Source: a virus
DNA length: 64,000 bases
Virus record (IMG/VR): IMGVR_UViG_3300045049_000286
Location: 1-64,000 of that record
Reading direction: 5' to 3' (one strand)
Positions 27,375 to 37,715 of this stretch are shown piece after piece (the stretch's first letter is position 1; each line of letters starts with the position of its first letter). A model generated the notes under the pieces. That model made no database searches and had not been told where the DNA came from. It was given only the letters and a program-made list of their open reading frames with translations. The translations under genes were made by a program, and so were the position numbers.

Positions 27375-28169
27375 ATGGCGCGCATGCCCGGAGCCGTTTG
27401 GATAGGCCCCACCCCCAACGAGCACCCCAACGGAATGCTCGACCACCGTGGGCTCGTCCTGCACATCCAGCAGGGCACCGAAGCCGGCAGCGAGGCGTGG
27501 TTCAAGGACCCCGCCAGCCAGGCCAGCGCCCACTTCCTCAACCCCAAGACCGGACCGCTGCGCCAGCTCGTCGACACCGACGACCGCGCCTGGGCCGAGA
27601 TGCGCGGCAACTGGTACTGGGTCAGCATCGAGAACGAGGGCTACTCCGGGCAGCAGCTCACCGCCTCCCAGTTGGAGAACGCCGCCCGCCTCCTCGCGTG
27701 GCTGCACACCACCTACCAAGTGCCCCTGCAGTCCACCGACGACCCCAACGGCCACGGCCTTGGCTGGCACGGCATGGGCGGCGACGCCTGGGGCGGCCAC
27801 TTCGACTGCCCCGGAGACCCCATCAAGGCCCAGCGCGGCCAGATCATCGCCCGCGCCCAGGCCATCCTCGGCCAGCCCACGCCCCCGCCCAGCGGCGGCG
27901 GCAGCAAGACCTACATCCCGCCCGCGTTCCCCACCGGCCTGCACCCGGACGGCACCAGCCCCTCCGCCAAGCCACTGCAGCAGGCGCTCAAGGCCACCGG
28001 TTGGCTCGCCAAGGACGTCGTCCTGTCCGACCACTACGGCCCCCTCACCCAGCACGCGGTCGCCGGCTTCAACGCCAAGCACAACCTCAACGACACCGGC
28101 CTCACCTACGACCCGGCGATCGGACCGCGCGGCTGGGCCCTGCTCAACACCCTCGCCTACGGTCACTGA
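27375..28169 (+). CDS. endolysin: N-acetylmuramoyl-L-alanine amidase with peptidoglycan-binding domain
   Basis: 264 residues. The N-terminal Amidase_2 domain has the zinc-ligand pattern DHRGLVLHIQQG ... SAHFLNPKTG ... SIENEGYSG ... HGMGGDAWGGHFDCPGDP. The C-terminus (residues ~195-264, AKPLQQALKATGWLAKD, then DHYGPLTQHAVAGFNAKHNL) is a PG_binding_1 domain. It cleaves the amide bond between N-acetylmuramic acid and L-alanine to lyse the host. GAAGGAG ribosome binding site. No signal peptide, so it depends on a holin. Confidence 0.9.
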   Translation: MARMPGAVWIGPTPNEHPNGMLDHRGLVLHIQQGTEAGSEAWFKDPASQASAHFLNPKTGPLRQLVDTDDRAWAEMRGNWYWVSIENEGYSGQQLTASQLENAARLLAWLHTTYQVPLQSTDDPNGHGLGWHGMGGDAWGGHFDCPGDPIKAQRGQIIARAQAILGQPTPPPSGGGSKTYIPPAFPTGLHPDGTSPSAKPLQQALKATGWLAKDVVLSDHYGPLTQHAVAGFNAKHNLNDTGLTYDPAIGPRGWALLNTLAYGH

Positions 28170-28180
28170 CGGACAAGGAC

Positions 28181-28459
28181 ATGACCATGAACAAGACGTT
28201 CCTCGTCGACCTCGCCGAGCGCACCATCTCCACCTACCTGCAGGCCCTCCTCGGCCTGCTGCTCGCCGACTCCACCCACCTGCTCAGCCTCGGCGCCCTC
28301 AAGGCCACCGCCATCGCCTCCCTGCCGGCCGCCCTCGCCGTCGTCAAGGGCGCACTGGCCGGCTCCATCGGCACCGCCGGCACCGCCTCCCTGCTGCCCG
28401 CCGCCGGCACCGCCAGCGCCACCCCGGCCCCGGCCGCCAGCACCACCAGCGCCGGCTGA
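28181..28459 (+). CDS. holin, r1t/actinophage type candidate
   Basis: 92 residues from the ATG at 28181 (AAGGAC upstream). Hydrophobic helices at residues ~15-35 (ISTYLQALLGLLLADST) and ~40-62 (LKATAIASLPAALAVVKGAL) followed by an Ala/Thr/Pro-rich tail resemble the r1t-type holin of actinophages. It follows the amidase by 11 bases, the usual holin position in many actinophages. Confidence 0.7.
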   Translation: MTMNKTFLVDLAERTISTYLQALLGLLLADSTHLLSLGALKATAIASLPAALAVVKGALAGSIGTAGTASLLPAAGTASATPAPAASTTSAG

Positions 28460-28584: not shown

Positions 28585-29133
28585 ATGCTCTCCCAGCGAC
28601 TCAAAAACCGCCTCACCACCCACGCCATGGCGCCCCTTTACGCGCTCGCAGCCGCCGCCATCGCGGCCACCGCGTTCCTCGCGCCAGCAAGCGCCGCGCC
28701 CCACCCGGCCGCCGCGACGAAGCCGGCACGCGCCGTGCAGGTAGACGATCTTGTCCCGCACCGCAACGCCGCCGTCGCCCACACCATCCAGGCCACCCGC
28801 GCACCGGCCACGGCCGCCATCCACCACCGGCGCCTCGTGATCACCACCACCGCCGGCGCCAAGCGCTACGCCCGCTCCCTGCTCTCCGCCCGCCAGTACG
28901 CGTGCCTGAACAACATCTACATGCGCGAGTCCGGCTGGGACATCCACGCCTGGAACCCCGAGGGCGCCTACGGCATCCCGCAGGCGTACCCCGGCTGGAA
29001 GATGCGCACCTTCGGCAGCGACTGGCGCTGGAACGCGGCCACCCAAATCAACTGGGGCCTCTCCTACATCCACGACCGCTACGGCACCCCCTGCAGCGCG
29101 TGGGCCTTCTGGCAGGACCACAACTGGTACTAG
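28585..29133 (+). CDS. secreted lytic transglycosylase-like protein
   Basis: 182 residues with a signal peptide: positive N-terminus, hydrophobic ALAAAAIAATAFLAPASAA, then probable cleavage after ASA. The C-terminal ~80 residues (YACLNNIYMRESGWDIHAWN, EGAYGIPQAYPGWKM, ATQINWGLSYIHDRYGTPCS) match a transglycosylase-like SLT domain with the catalytic ESGW glutamate, typical of actinobacterial phage and secreted muralytic enzymes. It could help cell-wall breakdown at release or entry. The 118 bases before it hold a small CACAGGCATTAACC element (28474) and no further gene. Confidence 0.78.
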   Translation: MLSQRLKNRLTTHAMAPLYALAAAAIAATAFLAPASAAPHPAAATKPARAVQVDDLVPHRNAAVAHTIQATRAPATAAIHHRRLVITTTAGAKRYARSLLSARQYACLNNIYMRESGWDIHAWNPEGAYGIPQAYPGWKMRTFGSDWRWNAATQINWGLSYIHDRYGTPCSAWAFWQDHNWY

Positions 29134-29151: not shown

Positions 29152-29658
29152 GTGAGCAACATTCGCATTCTGATCTGCAAGGACTGCCAGTCCACCGAGA
29201 CCCTCCCCGACTTCCAGGGACGGCCGGCCGACGACGTCGAACTCGAATACGCCTGCTCCAAGCACGCCTACCCCGACGGCACACGCCACCTCGGGGGACG
29301 CCTGTTCACGGTGGACGAAACCGTCTGGAACAACCGCGAAGCCCGCGACGAGATCCTCAAGCAGATGTGGCAGAAGATGGGCCACACCGGACTCGAACCA
29401 TGGGTCTACCAGGCCGTCGACACCCTGCGCGCCGACGCAATGCAGTGCTGGCGCGACCGCCTGCGCCCCACCCGCTGCGCCGACTTCCACTCGGACAAGA
29501 AGATCCTCACCCCGCCCACCCGCGCCGAGCGCAAGTCCGAGGGCATGCCCAAGTGGGACAAGAACAACCGCGCAGCCCAGCGCTACCTGTGCGACTACTG
29601 CCCCATGCGCTCCGTCGCCGAGCAGGAAGTGCGAGCCAAGCAGGGCCTGTACGAATGA
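29152..29658 (+). CDS. unknown Cys-rich protein
   Basis: 168 residues from GTG (a weak site). Cysteine/histidine pairs at ICKDC (~9-13), YACSKH (~45-50), RPTRCADFH (~103-111) and LCDYCPMR (~146-153) suggest one or two zinc sites. The middle is helical (WNNREARDEILKQMWQKMGH). No family recognised. Overlaps the HNH gene by ATGA. Confidence 0.55.
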   Translation: MSNIRILICKDCQSTETLPDFQGRPADDVELEYACSKHAYPDGTRHLGGRLFTVDETVWNNREARDEILKQMWQKMGHTGLEPWVYQAVDTLRADAMQCWRDRLRPTRCADFHSDKKILTPPTRAERKSEGMPKWDKNNRAAQRYLCDYCPMRSVAEQEVRAKQGLYE

Positions 29659-31140: not shown

Positions 31141-31611
31141 ATGCTCACCGTCGTCATGGTCCTGGAAGGCGTGCTGCGAATCCCCAGCTCAGACGGCCAC
31201 TACCCCACCGGATGGTCGCTCTTCCACGCCCTCGCCCCCAACACGCGCCTCTACCTGCTCTCCCACCAGTGGCGCGACGAGGAATGCAAACCCTGGCTCG
31301 CCAAGCGCAACCTGACGGGCCATCTCGGCTACATCCACCAGCCCATCCCCGGCACGGCAGGCCGCCTCGAAGCCCTCCAACTCGTGCGCCACTGGCACGT
31401 CAACCTCGTCATCGAACCCGACCCCGCCTGCGCCGCCGCCGAGTTGGAAGCCGGATGGAACACCCTCCTGCACACCCACACCGGCTACAGCCGACCCGAA
31501 TGGCGCCCCGACTACACCGGCACGCCCCGCCCCTGGGACGACCTCATCGCCACCATCGAACGCCACCAGGACCTCCGCGCCCGCGACGACCGACTCAAGG
31601 AACCCAAGTGA
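31141..31611 (+). CDS. pseudo-HAD-like protein
   Basis: 156 residues, GGAGG upstream. As in the protein at 7697-8155, the HAD motif I position reads VVMVLEGVLRIP (expected DxDGVL), the second strand ends LYLLSHQW, and a later VIEPDPACAAAELEAGW matches the DP motif of HAD folds. The nucleophile Asp is therefore missing in both. Could bind a phosphoester or nucleotide without hydrolysing it. Fold is inferred by pattern; no catalysis claimed. Confidence 0.5.
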   Translation: MLTVVMVLEGVLRIPSSDGHYPTGWSLFHALAPNTRLYLLSHQWRDEECKPWLAKRNLTGHLGYIHQPIPGTAGRLEALQLVRHWHVNLVIEPDPACAAAELEAGWNTLLHTHTGYSRPEWRPDYTGTPRPWDDLIATIERHQDLRARDDRLKEPK

Positions 31612-31850
31612 ACGACTACGACCCCACCGAGCCGCTGCGCTTCAAGATCCTCCGCCAAGAGGACGACACCCTCAAGCACGTCGCCGACGGCGTCCGCTGG
31701 ACCGACAACAGCGTCTCCGTCCAGTGGCTCGACGAATCCCCCCGCGTGCTCAACTTCACCACCCTCGACCACGCCTCCCAAGTCCTCGGCGCAGACGGCG
31801 ACACCCACTTCGCCTTCCTCGACCACTGGGTGCCCCGGGAGAAGCTGTGA
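31608..31850 (+). CDS. small unknown protein
   Basis: 80 residues from GTG overlapping the previous stop. A compact beta-rich domain (PLRFKILRQEDDTLKHV, RWTDNSVSVQWLDESPR). Overlaps the next gene by GTGA, so the three genes at 31141-33319 form one translational unit. Confidence 0.55.
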   Translation: MNDYDPTEPLRFKILRQEDDTLKHVADGVRWTDNSVSVQWLDESPRVLNFTTLDHASQVLGADGDTHFAFLDHWVPREKL

Positions 31851-33319
31851 AGTTCTACTTCGGCGGAGGAGAGATCCCATCCCACCGCAACCTGCTCACC
31901 GCCGAGAACATGCCCCACGTCGCCCTCAGCTACATGGGCCTGCGCCGGCGCACCAAGTTCACCAAGCCCTGGCTCGCCGCCGAGGTCTTCGGCGACGACC
32001 AGTCCATCCTCCTCGACTCCGGCTGCCACACCCTCAACCGCGAAGGCGTCGAAGTCGACCACGACGAACTACGCGCCATCGCCGACCACTACTACAGCCT
32101 GATCGAGGCCAACATCGACCGCCTCGACGCGTACACAGAGTTCGACGCCCTCGCCCTCGGACACGACTGGATCAAGAACAACCGCGAACACCTCCATCCC
32201 GACAAGGCCATCGTCGTCTGGCACGAGGAGTACGGCCTCGACGAACTGCGCCGCATGGCCGACCAGCACCCCTACGTCGCCGTCGGACAAGCCACCTGCG
32301 GCGACCGCGACATCATCCCCGTTCTGCGCTCCCTCGCCCGCCAAGGACGTCTCCACGGCATGGGCTTCTCCTCCCCGCCGCTCATGCTCGCCGCCGACTG
32401 GTACTCGATCGCCTCCACCACCTGGCTGTCCGCAGCCCAGCACGGCGAGACCTTCGTGTGGACCGGAACCGAGTTGAAGCGGTACCCCACCCGCTACAAG
32501 GCCCAGGCCCGCAAACGCCACCGCTCCCTGTTCACCGACGCCGGCCTCGACGCCGACAAGATCGAAGCCGACGACCCCACCGAGGTCCTGCGCCTGTCCC
32601 TGTGGTCGTGGACGAAGCAGATCGAGCACATTTCGCGGCGCCACGGCGACCCAGCAACTGTGACGCCGATCCGGCCACACCTCGAAATCGCGGAAACCAC
32701 CGCCGGTGCACCTACGGGGACGCACCCCGAGGATAGCCTCGAACCCGCAACTATCCGCCGCGAGAAGCGCCTCCTGCCCGGAATCGAACAAGAGCGCTTC
32801 ACCTACCGCTACACCGACCCCGAAACCGGCGAGAAGACCAGCCGGCAGGAAACCCGCCTGCACGCCGTGGACCCAGACGTCCGCGTCTGCGACGGATGCT
32901 TCCTCGCCAACAAGTGCCGCGACTACCAGCCCGGCCACTCCTGCGTCTACGAGATCCCCATCCGCGTCCGCACCAAAGAGCAGTACATCGCCCTCTTGGA
33001 CGGGGTCATCGCCATGCAGGGCGCCCGCGTCATGTTCATGCGCGTCGCAGAAGAGGTCGAAGGCGGATACGCCGACCCCAACCTCTCCCAGGAGATGGAC
33101 CGCCTCGCGAAGTACATCAAGCTCAAGGCCGACATCGAAGAAGCCGGCTTCACCTTCTCCATGAAGATCCAGCAAAAGGACGGCGCACAGGTCGGCCTCC
33201 TGTCCCGGCTCTTTGGAGACAAGGCGGGGGGCCCCCCGGCCCTCACCGCCTCCGGCACAGTGTCAGCCCAGCAGGCAATCGAACAAATGGGCATCGTGGA
33301 CGCCGAAGTCGTCGAATGA
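31847..33319 (+). CDS. TGT/DpdA-like protein with C-terminal Cys domain
   Basis: 490 residues from GTG. The N-terminal ~250 residues match the TIM-barrel tRNA-guanine-transglycosylase/DpdA type: SILLDSGCHTL, ALGHDWIKNNREHL, KAIVVWHEEYGLDEL, YVAVGQATCGD, LHGMGFSSPP. Phage DpdA proteins swap guanine for 7-deazaguanine in DNA to resist restriction. The expected nucleophile in the SvDStsW context is Ala here (SIASTTW). A second domain (residues ~345-470) has VCDGCFLANKCRDYQPGHSC, a probable zinc site, and a helical tail. No preQ0 synthesis genes are in the window. Activity is therefore uncertain. Confidence 0.6.
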   Translation: MKFYFGGGEIPSHRNLLTAENMPHVALSYMGLRRRTKFTKPWLAAEVFGDDQSILLDSGCHTLNREGVEVDHDELRAIADHYYSLIEANIDRLDAYTEFDALALGHDWIKNNREHLHPDKAIVVWHEEYGLDELRRMADQHPYVAVGQATCGDRDIIPVLRSLARQGRLHGMGFSSPPLMLAADWYSIASTTWLSAAQHGETFVWTGTELKRYPTRYKAQARKRHRSLFTDAGLDADKIEADDPTEVLRLSLWSWTKQIEHISRRHGDPATVTPIRPHLEIAETTAGAPTGTHPEDSLEPATIRREKRLLPGIEQERFTYRYTDPETGEKTSRQETRLHAVDPDVRVCDGCFLANKCRDYQPGHSCVYEIPIRVRTKEQYIALLDGVIAMQGARVMFMRVAEEVEGGYADPNLSQEMDRLAKYIKLKADIEEAGFTFSMKIQQKDGAQVGLLSRLFGDKAGGPPALTASGTVSAQQAIEQMGIVDAEVVE

Positions 33320-35882: not shown

Positions 35883-36008
35883 GTGCTGACGGACTCCGAC
35901 GACGCGACTCCCGACAAGGCCGACTGCTGGGCCGCCTTCTGGGAGGTCATAGGCCCTGAGCTGTACCGGCTCTGGCTCGAAGACCAGACCAACTCAACTA
36001 GCGACTGA
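35883..36008 (+). CDS. possible 41-residue protein
   Basis: GTG at 35883, poor ribosome binding site, 20 bases after a CATT box. Sequence LTDSDDATPDKADCWAAFWE then VIGPELYRLWLEDQTN looks coding and helical. Overlaps the 3' end of the integrase (opposite strand) by 15 bases. In-frame ATGs at 35802 and 35820 are alternatives. Weak evidence. Confidence 0.35.
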   Translation: MLTDSDDATPDKADCWAAFWEVIGPELYRLWLEDQTNSTSD

Positions 36009-37715
36009 CGCGCGCTGTTCCAACACCTTCTCCCATGCCACGCGTCGCTTGACCTTCCCGTCGGGAGCCTCCCACGCGGGCACGATCTCGATCACGCTCC
36101 AGGACGTACCGGCACCCTTGCGCACCGCAATATGGTCGACAACCATGCGCAGCGCCGCTCGGCGCTTGTCCACCGACAGCCGTGGCCACTGCTCCGCCAT
36201 CTTCTCGAATGCTTCCGCAGGCGGCGGCGCACTGCTGCGTACCCGGGGCGCGAGCGTCTTCATCTCGGTCTCGATGTCCGCCAGCCTCTGCTCGTACTCG
36301 CGGGTGAGCTTCTCCGCCGACCGCTCCGGCACGGACTTCTTCGCCACTGCGAGGGCCAACGCATCCTGCTCGGCTTCGATCTGCTCCTTGAGCTTCTCCA
36401 GCTGTACCAGCTTCTTGCGGTCCCGCTCATCAGAAAGTTGACGCTGGACCGCTGCTACCGCGTTCTCCTCGCCCTCAGCGTTCGCCTTGAGCCAGTTGAG
36501 GACCGCAGCTTCCAACCGTGCCAGCGAGACCTGCACGCCCTCGCAGTCGCCCGTGTGCAACTTGCGTCGGCAGCCGAAGTTGACGATGTACCCCGACGTC
36601 GCCCGAGAGTCCCGCCTCGGCCGTGCGGACATGGAAGACCTGCAGACGCTCCCGTTCTCCCGCGTCGCATAGCAACGAACCAGCGTCGAAACCGAGTACT
36701 TGGGGTTCGTCGACCGCGTCTCCCCCTGTGCCTGCAGCAGCCGGCGCTCCACGTACCGGCGCCACACCTCTGGACCGATGATCGGAGCGTGCTTACCCCG
36801 CCGCCAACCGGCTGGCGGAGCGTAGTACGACGGACCGCCTTCCTCGTCTTGAACAAGCTCCCACTCGAAATCGTCGGCCGCCCACTTCCGCAGCTCCTCG
36901 GTCTCCGTACCGACGTCGGTCCGGAGGTAGCCGGCCTGGAACCCGGTGTCGAGCGAGTTGCGCCAATCGCCCCACGACATCTTCTTGCCGTCGGGGTATT
37001 TCTTTGACGGGGCCGAACGGAATCCGGACTTCTGGAACTGCGCAGCGAGCGCCTGCCCGCTTTCGCCGTTCCCGTACCGGCGGCACATCTCCTCGATGTC
37101 GTCGGCCGTGCTCTCGTTGATCTGCAGCACGCCGTCGCACGTCTTGCAGTGGACGTATGCGCGCTCGTTCATCGGGTTGCGATGGCAATCAGGGCACCGG
37201 GTGTATCCGAGCCGCAGCCGGCCGCTGTGCGGCATGCCGCGCCGGTGTCGGTTGTCGTGGGCGCGGACCCACGCCTCGGAGATAAGCACCGAGCCGTTCT
37301 CGTCGACCACGGTGTTGAATTGAAAGGCGAGCTTTCCGGCCGCCGTGGATGTGTCGATGATCTGGCCGCCAGCGATAAGGCATGAGCCAGATTCACGCAG
37401 CAGTCGCTCATGCCGCTGAGCCTCTGCGCTGTTGCGCCCCCACCGGTTGGTGTGAATGAGGATGACGCCGTCGATCTCAGCGCGGCGCGACATGTCAATG
37501 ATTTCCATGATTCGGCGCGTCTCGAAGACGGTGCCGGTGAGGTCCTTCTCGATGATGACATCGACGACCGAAACACCGAGCATCTCGGCTACGCGCTTGC
37601 CGTGGTCGATCTGGATCTCTTCGCTGTACTGCATCGTGCGGTCCATGCTGATGCGCACATAGATGACTGCCCGGCGCAGTGCGCGAAGGGCTGTACGGCG
37701 CAGCTTCTTTGCCAT
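35994..37715 (-). CDS. large serine integrase
   Basis: 573 residues. N-terminal resolvase domain with AVIYVRISMDR (catalytic Ser23), RRAEIDGVILIHTNRWGRN, then a recombinase domain and a zinc-ribbon domain (RCYATRENGSVCRSSM, NFGCRRKLHTGDCEG) and a coiled-coil (LEKLKEQIEAEQDALALAVA). An extra Cys4 ribbon (RCPDCHRNPMNERAYVHCKT, CDG) lies inside the recombinase domain. Such enzymes join attP and attB with a 2-base crossover. Leftward, last in a three-gene leftward group after the candidate attP. Implies a temperate life style. Confidence 0.95.
   Translation of the reverse strand: MAKKLRRTALRALRRAVIYVRISMDRTMQYSEEIQIDHGKRVAEMLGVSVVDVIIEKDLTGTVFETRRIMEIIDMSRRAEIDGVILIHTNRWGRNSAEAQRHERLLRESGSCLIAGGQIIDTSTAAGKLAFQFNTVVDENGSVLISEAWVRAHDNRHRRGMPHSGRLRLGYTRCPDCHRNPMNERAYVHCKTCDGVLQINESTADDIEEMCRRYGNGESGQALAAQFQKSGFRSAPSKKYPDGKKMSWGDWRNSLDTGFQAGYLRTDVGTETEELRKWAADDFEWELVQDEEGGPSYYAPPAGWRRGKHAPIIGPEVWRRYVERRLLQAQGETRSTNPKYSVSTLVRCYATRENGSVCRSSMSARPRRDSRATSGYIVNFGCRRKLHTGDCEGVQVSLARLEAAVLNWLKANAEGEENAVAAVQRQLSDERDRKKLVQLEKLKEQIEAEQDALALAVAKKSVPERSAEKLTREYEQRLADIETEMKTLAPRVRSSAPPPAEAFEKMAEQWPRLSVDKRRAALRMVVDHIAVRKGAGTSWSVIEIVPAWEAPDGKVKRRVAWEKVLEQRASVAS

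Follow-up and report, generated by a model that had tools for sequence, protein, structure and literature searches.

The window analysed here, i.e., the whole stretch of 64,000 nucleotides which opens a virus record of 107,980 bp (positions 1-64000), encodes a 490-aa protein which combines a DpdA/TGT-like barrel deprived of the nucleophile Asp with a Cys4/helical module (C-module) fused to its C-terminus (Table 1). The loss of catalysis is well supported. Judging from the sequences, the protein is very probably not a 7-deazaguanine transglycosylase, since the Asp-less state is a rule of its family, preQ0 genes are absent, the family has a single origin and is under purifying selection, and the presumed hosts lack tgt and mostly lack queC. 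There is about an even chance that it represents a DpdA-derived pseudoenzyme which has lost the nucleophile, acquired the C-module by fusion and operates now as a packaging or DNA-recognition factor resembling the terminase small subunit (TerS); a packaging role, taken separately, is somewhat less than evenly probable. The initial annotation, which had described a TGT/DpdA-like protein lacking its nucleophile, is partly supported as a whole.

A DpdA-type barrel without the nucleophile

The sole profile match of the 490-aa protein was phrog_887, "queuine tRNA-ribosyltransferase" (full length, E 1.1e-67); the Pfam and NCBIfam searches returned no match, and a single-sequence search of the PDB gave nothing useful. 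The only sequence-level relative in the PDB was 7ui4, "DNA-guanine transglycosylase", whose "SIDSTT" aligns weakly (E 0.018) to SIASTTW of the window protein. Comparison of the barrel with Asp-bearing phage DpdA by hhalign gave E 6e-25 across 233 columns, and in BFVD it matched the queuine tRNA-ribosyltransferase of phage Sonali (E 4e-9); Foldseek of the protein model against the PDB revealed generic barrels only (E > 1e-3). In the AlphaFold2 model, built on 48 relatives, the barrel is followed by a disordered linker and the Cys4 region; a pair of long helices then leads to a flexible tail. The barrel is of the DpdA type. The fold assigned initially is therefore borne out by the phrog_887 profile, hhalign and the structure prediction called for at that time; the confident DpdA-like barrel at residues 1-265 contradicts the non-TGT fold named as the alternative.

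Table 1. Features of the 490-aa protein and its gene neighbourhood (positions in the window)
Feature	Position	Strand	Remarks
168-aa Cys-rich neighbour, same block	29152..29658	+	conserved in 63/67 loci
156-aa neighbour, upstream	31141..31611	+	conserved in 64/67 loci
Small ORF immediately upstream, 80 aa	31608..31850	+	phrog_7499 (no function assigned); few matches among compared loci
Asp-less DpdA/TGT-like protein with fused Cys4/helical C-module	31847..33319	+	490 aa, GTG start
TGT/DpdA-like barrel, residues 1-265	31847..32641	+	AlphaFold2 pLDDT mostly 90-98
D57 of the DSG motif, retained (other Asp for catalysis/recognition)	32015..32017	+	fused: D 36/50, E 7/50; unfused: D 8/8
D100, second pocket Asp, kept	32144..32146	+	fused 45/50; unfused 8/8
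A189, where DpdA has its nucleophile Asp (S-V-D-S-x-S/T-W)	32411..32413	+	Asp in 0/134 fused, 8/8 unfused
E201, acid typical of the Asp-less clade	32447..32449	+	D/E in 50/50 non-redundant; A or S in 6/54 further proteins
Cys4 motif C348-x2-C351-x5-C357-x8-C366	32888..32944	+	probable zinc site, from the sequence
Two long helices, residues 377-404 and 411-432	32975..33142	+	AlphaFold2; probable oligomerisation hairpin
Flexible tail, conserved L-x-R-L-F-G motif, acidic C-terminus DAEVVE	33164..33316	+	pLDDT < 50 over most
Serine integrase	35994-37715	-	phrog_95, E 4e-52

The likeness to phage DpdA (phrog_887; Knocker, Sonali, RHph_N17, BS162P1 gp87) includes, apart from the barrel, the DSG motif, D100, HG and S-x-x-S-x-S/T-W. 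The window protein differs in the absence of the nucleophile Asp and of preQ0 genes and in the presence of the fused Cys4/helical module; hence, no 7-deazaguanine would be expected from it. Residue 189, situated in the seventh barrel strand of the model, is Ala in "SIASTTW" as aligned with Asp-bearing phage DpdA proteins, just as had been read from the sequence initially, and the alignment displays no relocated Asp in the motif, a case that had also been considered. Among the 134 distinct fused relatives with a readable residue at this position, the column comprised S 82, A 37, T 5, L 4, G 4 and I 2, without a single Asp, whereas Asp was retained in all eight unfused phage DpdA relatives (Fisher p 3e-13, indicative only because the rows are related). 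Ala at 189 accordingly reflects a family rule, as seen in the aligned sequences, and not a single mutation.

The position equivalent to the nucleophile Asp280 is occupied by A189; the second catalytic Asp (the Asp102 equivalent) is present as D57. The D57 column is E, H or Y in 13/50 non-redundant fused proteins. The more distant aquatic members of the family have lost D57, and some of them D100 as well, but they keep the C-module, W193 and the G-D/E-T segment; the function under conservation is therefore something other than TGT chemistry. E201 was considered as a relocated nucleophile and rejected: D or E occurs in this column of all 50 non-redundant proteins, but A or S in 6/54 further ones, so E201 is not a strict replacement. 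As a separate observation, the Asp-bearing dpdA of MT835482.1 (L012:1473-3713) is split by a long intein-like insert exactly within the nucleophile motif.

Full-length relatives were gathered from GenBank phages, IMG/VR and two bacterial genome assemblies; the profile scan of IMG/VR confirmed 448 relatives, of which 80 were kept. The Asp-less fused proteins occupy one side of a branch (support 100/99), and their state takes one change on the tree (0/500 shuffles). The tree therefore indicates a single origin of the Asp-less fused clade. The dN/dS ratio was 0.07-0.41 across the whole gene and mostly lowest within the C-module, which shows a functional gene under purifying selection; together with the intact ORFs, these low values rule out a decaying pseudogene. 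Genes matching in GenBank are labelled in one case as DpdA-like, in one as "queuine tRNA-ribosyltransferase" and in the rest as "hypothetical". The two former labels predict deazaguanine-modified DNA, which is almost certainly wrong for the Asp-less clade, and many annotations are affected since 448 relatives were confirmed in IMG/VR.

Precursor genes, hosts and possible TGT partners

The absence of preQ0 genes, initially noted for the window, extends to the whole 107,980-bp record, where the Pfam models of queC, queD and folE found no match; the suggestion that the missing genes lie outside the window is thereby refuted for this record. By comparison, several of queC, queD, queE and folE are present in 8/8 Asp-bearing loci. 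QueC was found in 0/33 whole Asp-less phage records, QueD in 0/18 and FolE in 0/21 Asp-less phage records, some of which may be fragments.

Supply of the precursor by the host, another initial suggestion, is unlikely. In 150 sampled Streptomyces genomes, taken as presumed hosts, TGT (PF01702) was found in none and a full-length QueC match in 18 (best E < 1e-20; the remaining matches were partial and weak). Neither QueC nor TGT was found in the Streptomyces diastatochromogenes genome carrying a relative of the 490-aa gene, which resides there in a 7.7-Mb contig (L016); in the Saccharothrix genome carrying another relative, QueC is present and TGT was not found. Moreover, the host precursor would be no rescue, since it cannot repair the missing nucleophile. 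Thus, of the three options offered initially, the inactive transglycosylase has much the strongest support.

That the protein is an active 7-deazaguanine transglycosylase using a host precursor and some other nucleophile seems very improbable. DpdA-only phages do exist as a large known (third) group, one of them, Salmonella phage 7-11, bearing traces of dADG (PMC6884629), and the full-length QueC of about 18/150 Streptomyces and of the Saccharothrix host genome also speaks for such an activity. Nevertheless, the Asp is lost in 134/134 fused proteins with no strictly conserved acid replacing it, the S. diastatochromogenes genome harbours a relative without QueC or TGT, and the DNA of the DpdA-only Mycobacterium phage Orion is free of 7-deazaguanine (PMC6884629). 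The Orion result agrees with the findings made here. The least probable possibility is an inactive subunit supporting a separate active TGT, for which eukaryotic QTRT2 sets a precedent: it is a non-catalytic protein of the TGT fold with changed catalytic Asp residues, working with the active partner QTRT1 (PMC6165067). For the window protein, no TGT partner was found in phage or host: the Asp-less phage records contain only one phrog_887 gene each (a second TGT was sought by phrog_887), and TGT was found in 0/150 Streptomyces and in 0/2 genomes holding relatives.

The C-terminal module and terminase small subunits

The additional C-terminal Cys domain pointed out initially as unusual is real, its residues C348, C351, C357 and C366 being invariant across 50 non-redundant relatives, but it is no oddity of this protein: it is shared with a neighbour of dpdA and with annotated TerS. 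The mean pairwise identity is higher in the C-module (51%) than in the barrel (40%), and the helix region lies in the best conserved part of the family. In Bacteroides phage BS162P1 (gp88), MT835482.1 and L041, the homologous module (hhalign E 7e-29 between the window family and the stand-alone Bacteroides type) is a separate gene adjoining an Asp-bearing dpdA and preQ0 genes such as queC, in contrast to the fused module of the window protein.

The second group of proteins with this module are the annotated TerS of Gordonia, Tsukamurella and Rhodococcus phages (phrog_16015, phrog_6902; Jumbo gp6), which resemble the window protein in length, in the helices and in the identical C-x2-C-x5-C-x8-C spacing. 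The C-module matched the C-terminal part of annotated TerS with hhalign E 1.4e-6 (the best of 100 column shuffles gave 0.011) and, with 18 sequences, at a profile E of 5.6e-8; the large terminase (TerL) used as a control in the profile comparison gave no match. The profiles thus indicate a remote but significant homology of the C-module to the C-terminal part of annotated TerS. The whole window protein was also matched by Foldseek to Gordonia phage Jumbo gp6, annotated as a terminase small subunit (E 1.4e-6), and the reciprocal search with the Jumbo TerS model returned A0A6J7XEC0 (3.4e-4) and A0A6J5L5L3 (1.1e-3), the same two entries that the window protein had matched best. This reciprocity is only supportive because the Jumbo TerS model is of low confidence (pLDDT 51). 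The N-terminal domains are weakly comparable, with hhalign E 1e-3 for the barrel vs. the TerS N-domain and 3e-4 for DpdA vs. the latter. Terminase small subunits have DAEVV ends similar to that of the window protein, possibly by coincidence. In BFVD, separate matches to the barrel and to the TerS-type protein fall on the consecutively numbered entries D4P707 and D4P708, which may be adjacent split genes of one phage.

In 11/11 Gordonia, Tsukamurella and Rhodococcus phages, the gene annotated as TerS immediately precedes that of the large terminase (including Gmala1, whose downstream gene bears a different label), these annotations being made by position and homology. In contrast, TerL of the window's phage occupies 79309-80655 of the record, at a distance of 46 kb from the 490-aa gene, and a wide separation of the two genes is also seen in the remaining Asp-less records. 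In BRock, TerL is annotated and no gene is annotated as TerS (GiJojo was viewed in part). TerS often goes unrecognised in phage genomes.

Possible functions and genomic setting

A tentative scenario, more speculative than the packaging role as such, is that fusion of DpdA with the Cys-module protein encoded next to it, along with the loss of catalysis, gave rise to a packaging (small-terminase) or DNA-recognition protein in a large and for the most part uncharacterised group of actinophages and aquatic phages. In the main reading, which has about even odds, a DpdA-type transglycosylase has lost the Asp nucleophile permanently and has been fused to the Cys4/helical-hairpin module; the barrel may still grip DNA or a guanine with no exchange of the base, zinc would be bound by the Cys4 site, the helical hairpin might oligomerise, and the tail could attach to a partner, e.g., the large terminase. 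This reading draws on the DpdA barrel, the Asp loss in a clade of apparently single origin, the preQ0 absence, the purifying selection and the C-module homologies. The packaging role is opposed by the remote TerL, the weak N-domain homology, the poor TerS model and the non-experimental character of the TerS annotation. If the packaging link is true, a modification enzyme would have become part of genome recognition, and the BRock-type phages, which have no annotated small terminase, would gain a candidate for it; in phages, the modification of DNA and its packaging would be tied by descent.

The pseudoenzyme view is also opposed by the retention of D57 and D100 in the window's own clade, which leaves room for a guanine-binding or catalytic role. 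The pocket might carry out guanine chemistry without the covalent Asp intermediate, e.g., base excision by water via D57, or base sensing, making the protein a new enzyme and not a scaffold. TIM barrels change chemistry easily, the HG motif is kept along with D57 and D100, and acidic residues at 201 are frequent in the Asp-less clade but seldom occur in DpdA. Still, this possibility is rather unlikely, given the replacement of D57 in 13/50 proteins, the lack of D100 in a few more distant members, the A or S at 201 in 6/54 further proteins and the conservation of the C-module exceeding that of the barrel. Even less probable is a factor for tRNA or RNA binding or repair. The ancestral TGT family binds tRNA, and the BRock-group phages, rich in tRNAs, carry RNA ligases and polynucleotide kinase; nevertheless, there is no tRNA gene in the window, the closest relatives belong to the DNA-modifying DpdA types of preQ0 clusters, and the C-module matches packaging proteins.

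In the BRock group (NC_048650.1, L124; PP725410.1, L125), many tRNA genes (29 in BRock) occur together with the RNA ligases; the polynucleotide kinase was noted in BRock and a Ro-like protein in GiJojo. With its serine integrase, the 108-kb phage of the window is probably temperate. In its genome, the 490-aa gene stands last in a rightward block, behind the lysis genes (endolysin at 27375, holin at 28181, transglycosylase at 28585); its start overlaps by 4 bp with the stop codon before it. The conserved neighbours in this block were matched by neither Pfam nor PHROG models (the 156-aa protein) or had no significant Pfam match (the Cys-rich 168-aa protein). A 315-aa gene without a Pfam match, present in 46/67 loci (e.g., L076:5011-5949), displays a GS...DLDVLI pattern like that of pol-beta nucleotidyltransferases. 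Directly downstream of the Asp-less gene, a class II ribonucleotide reductase gene is found in 34/67 loci (e.g., L107:8612-10663).
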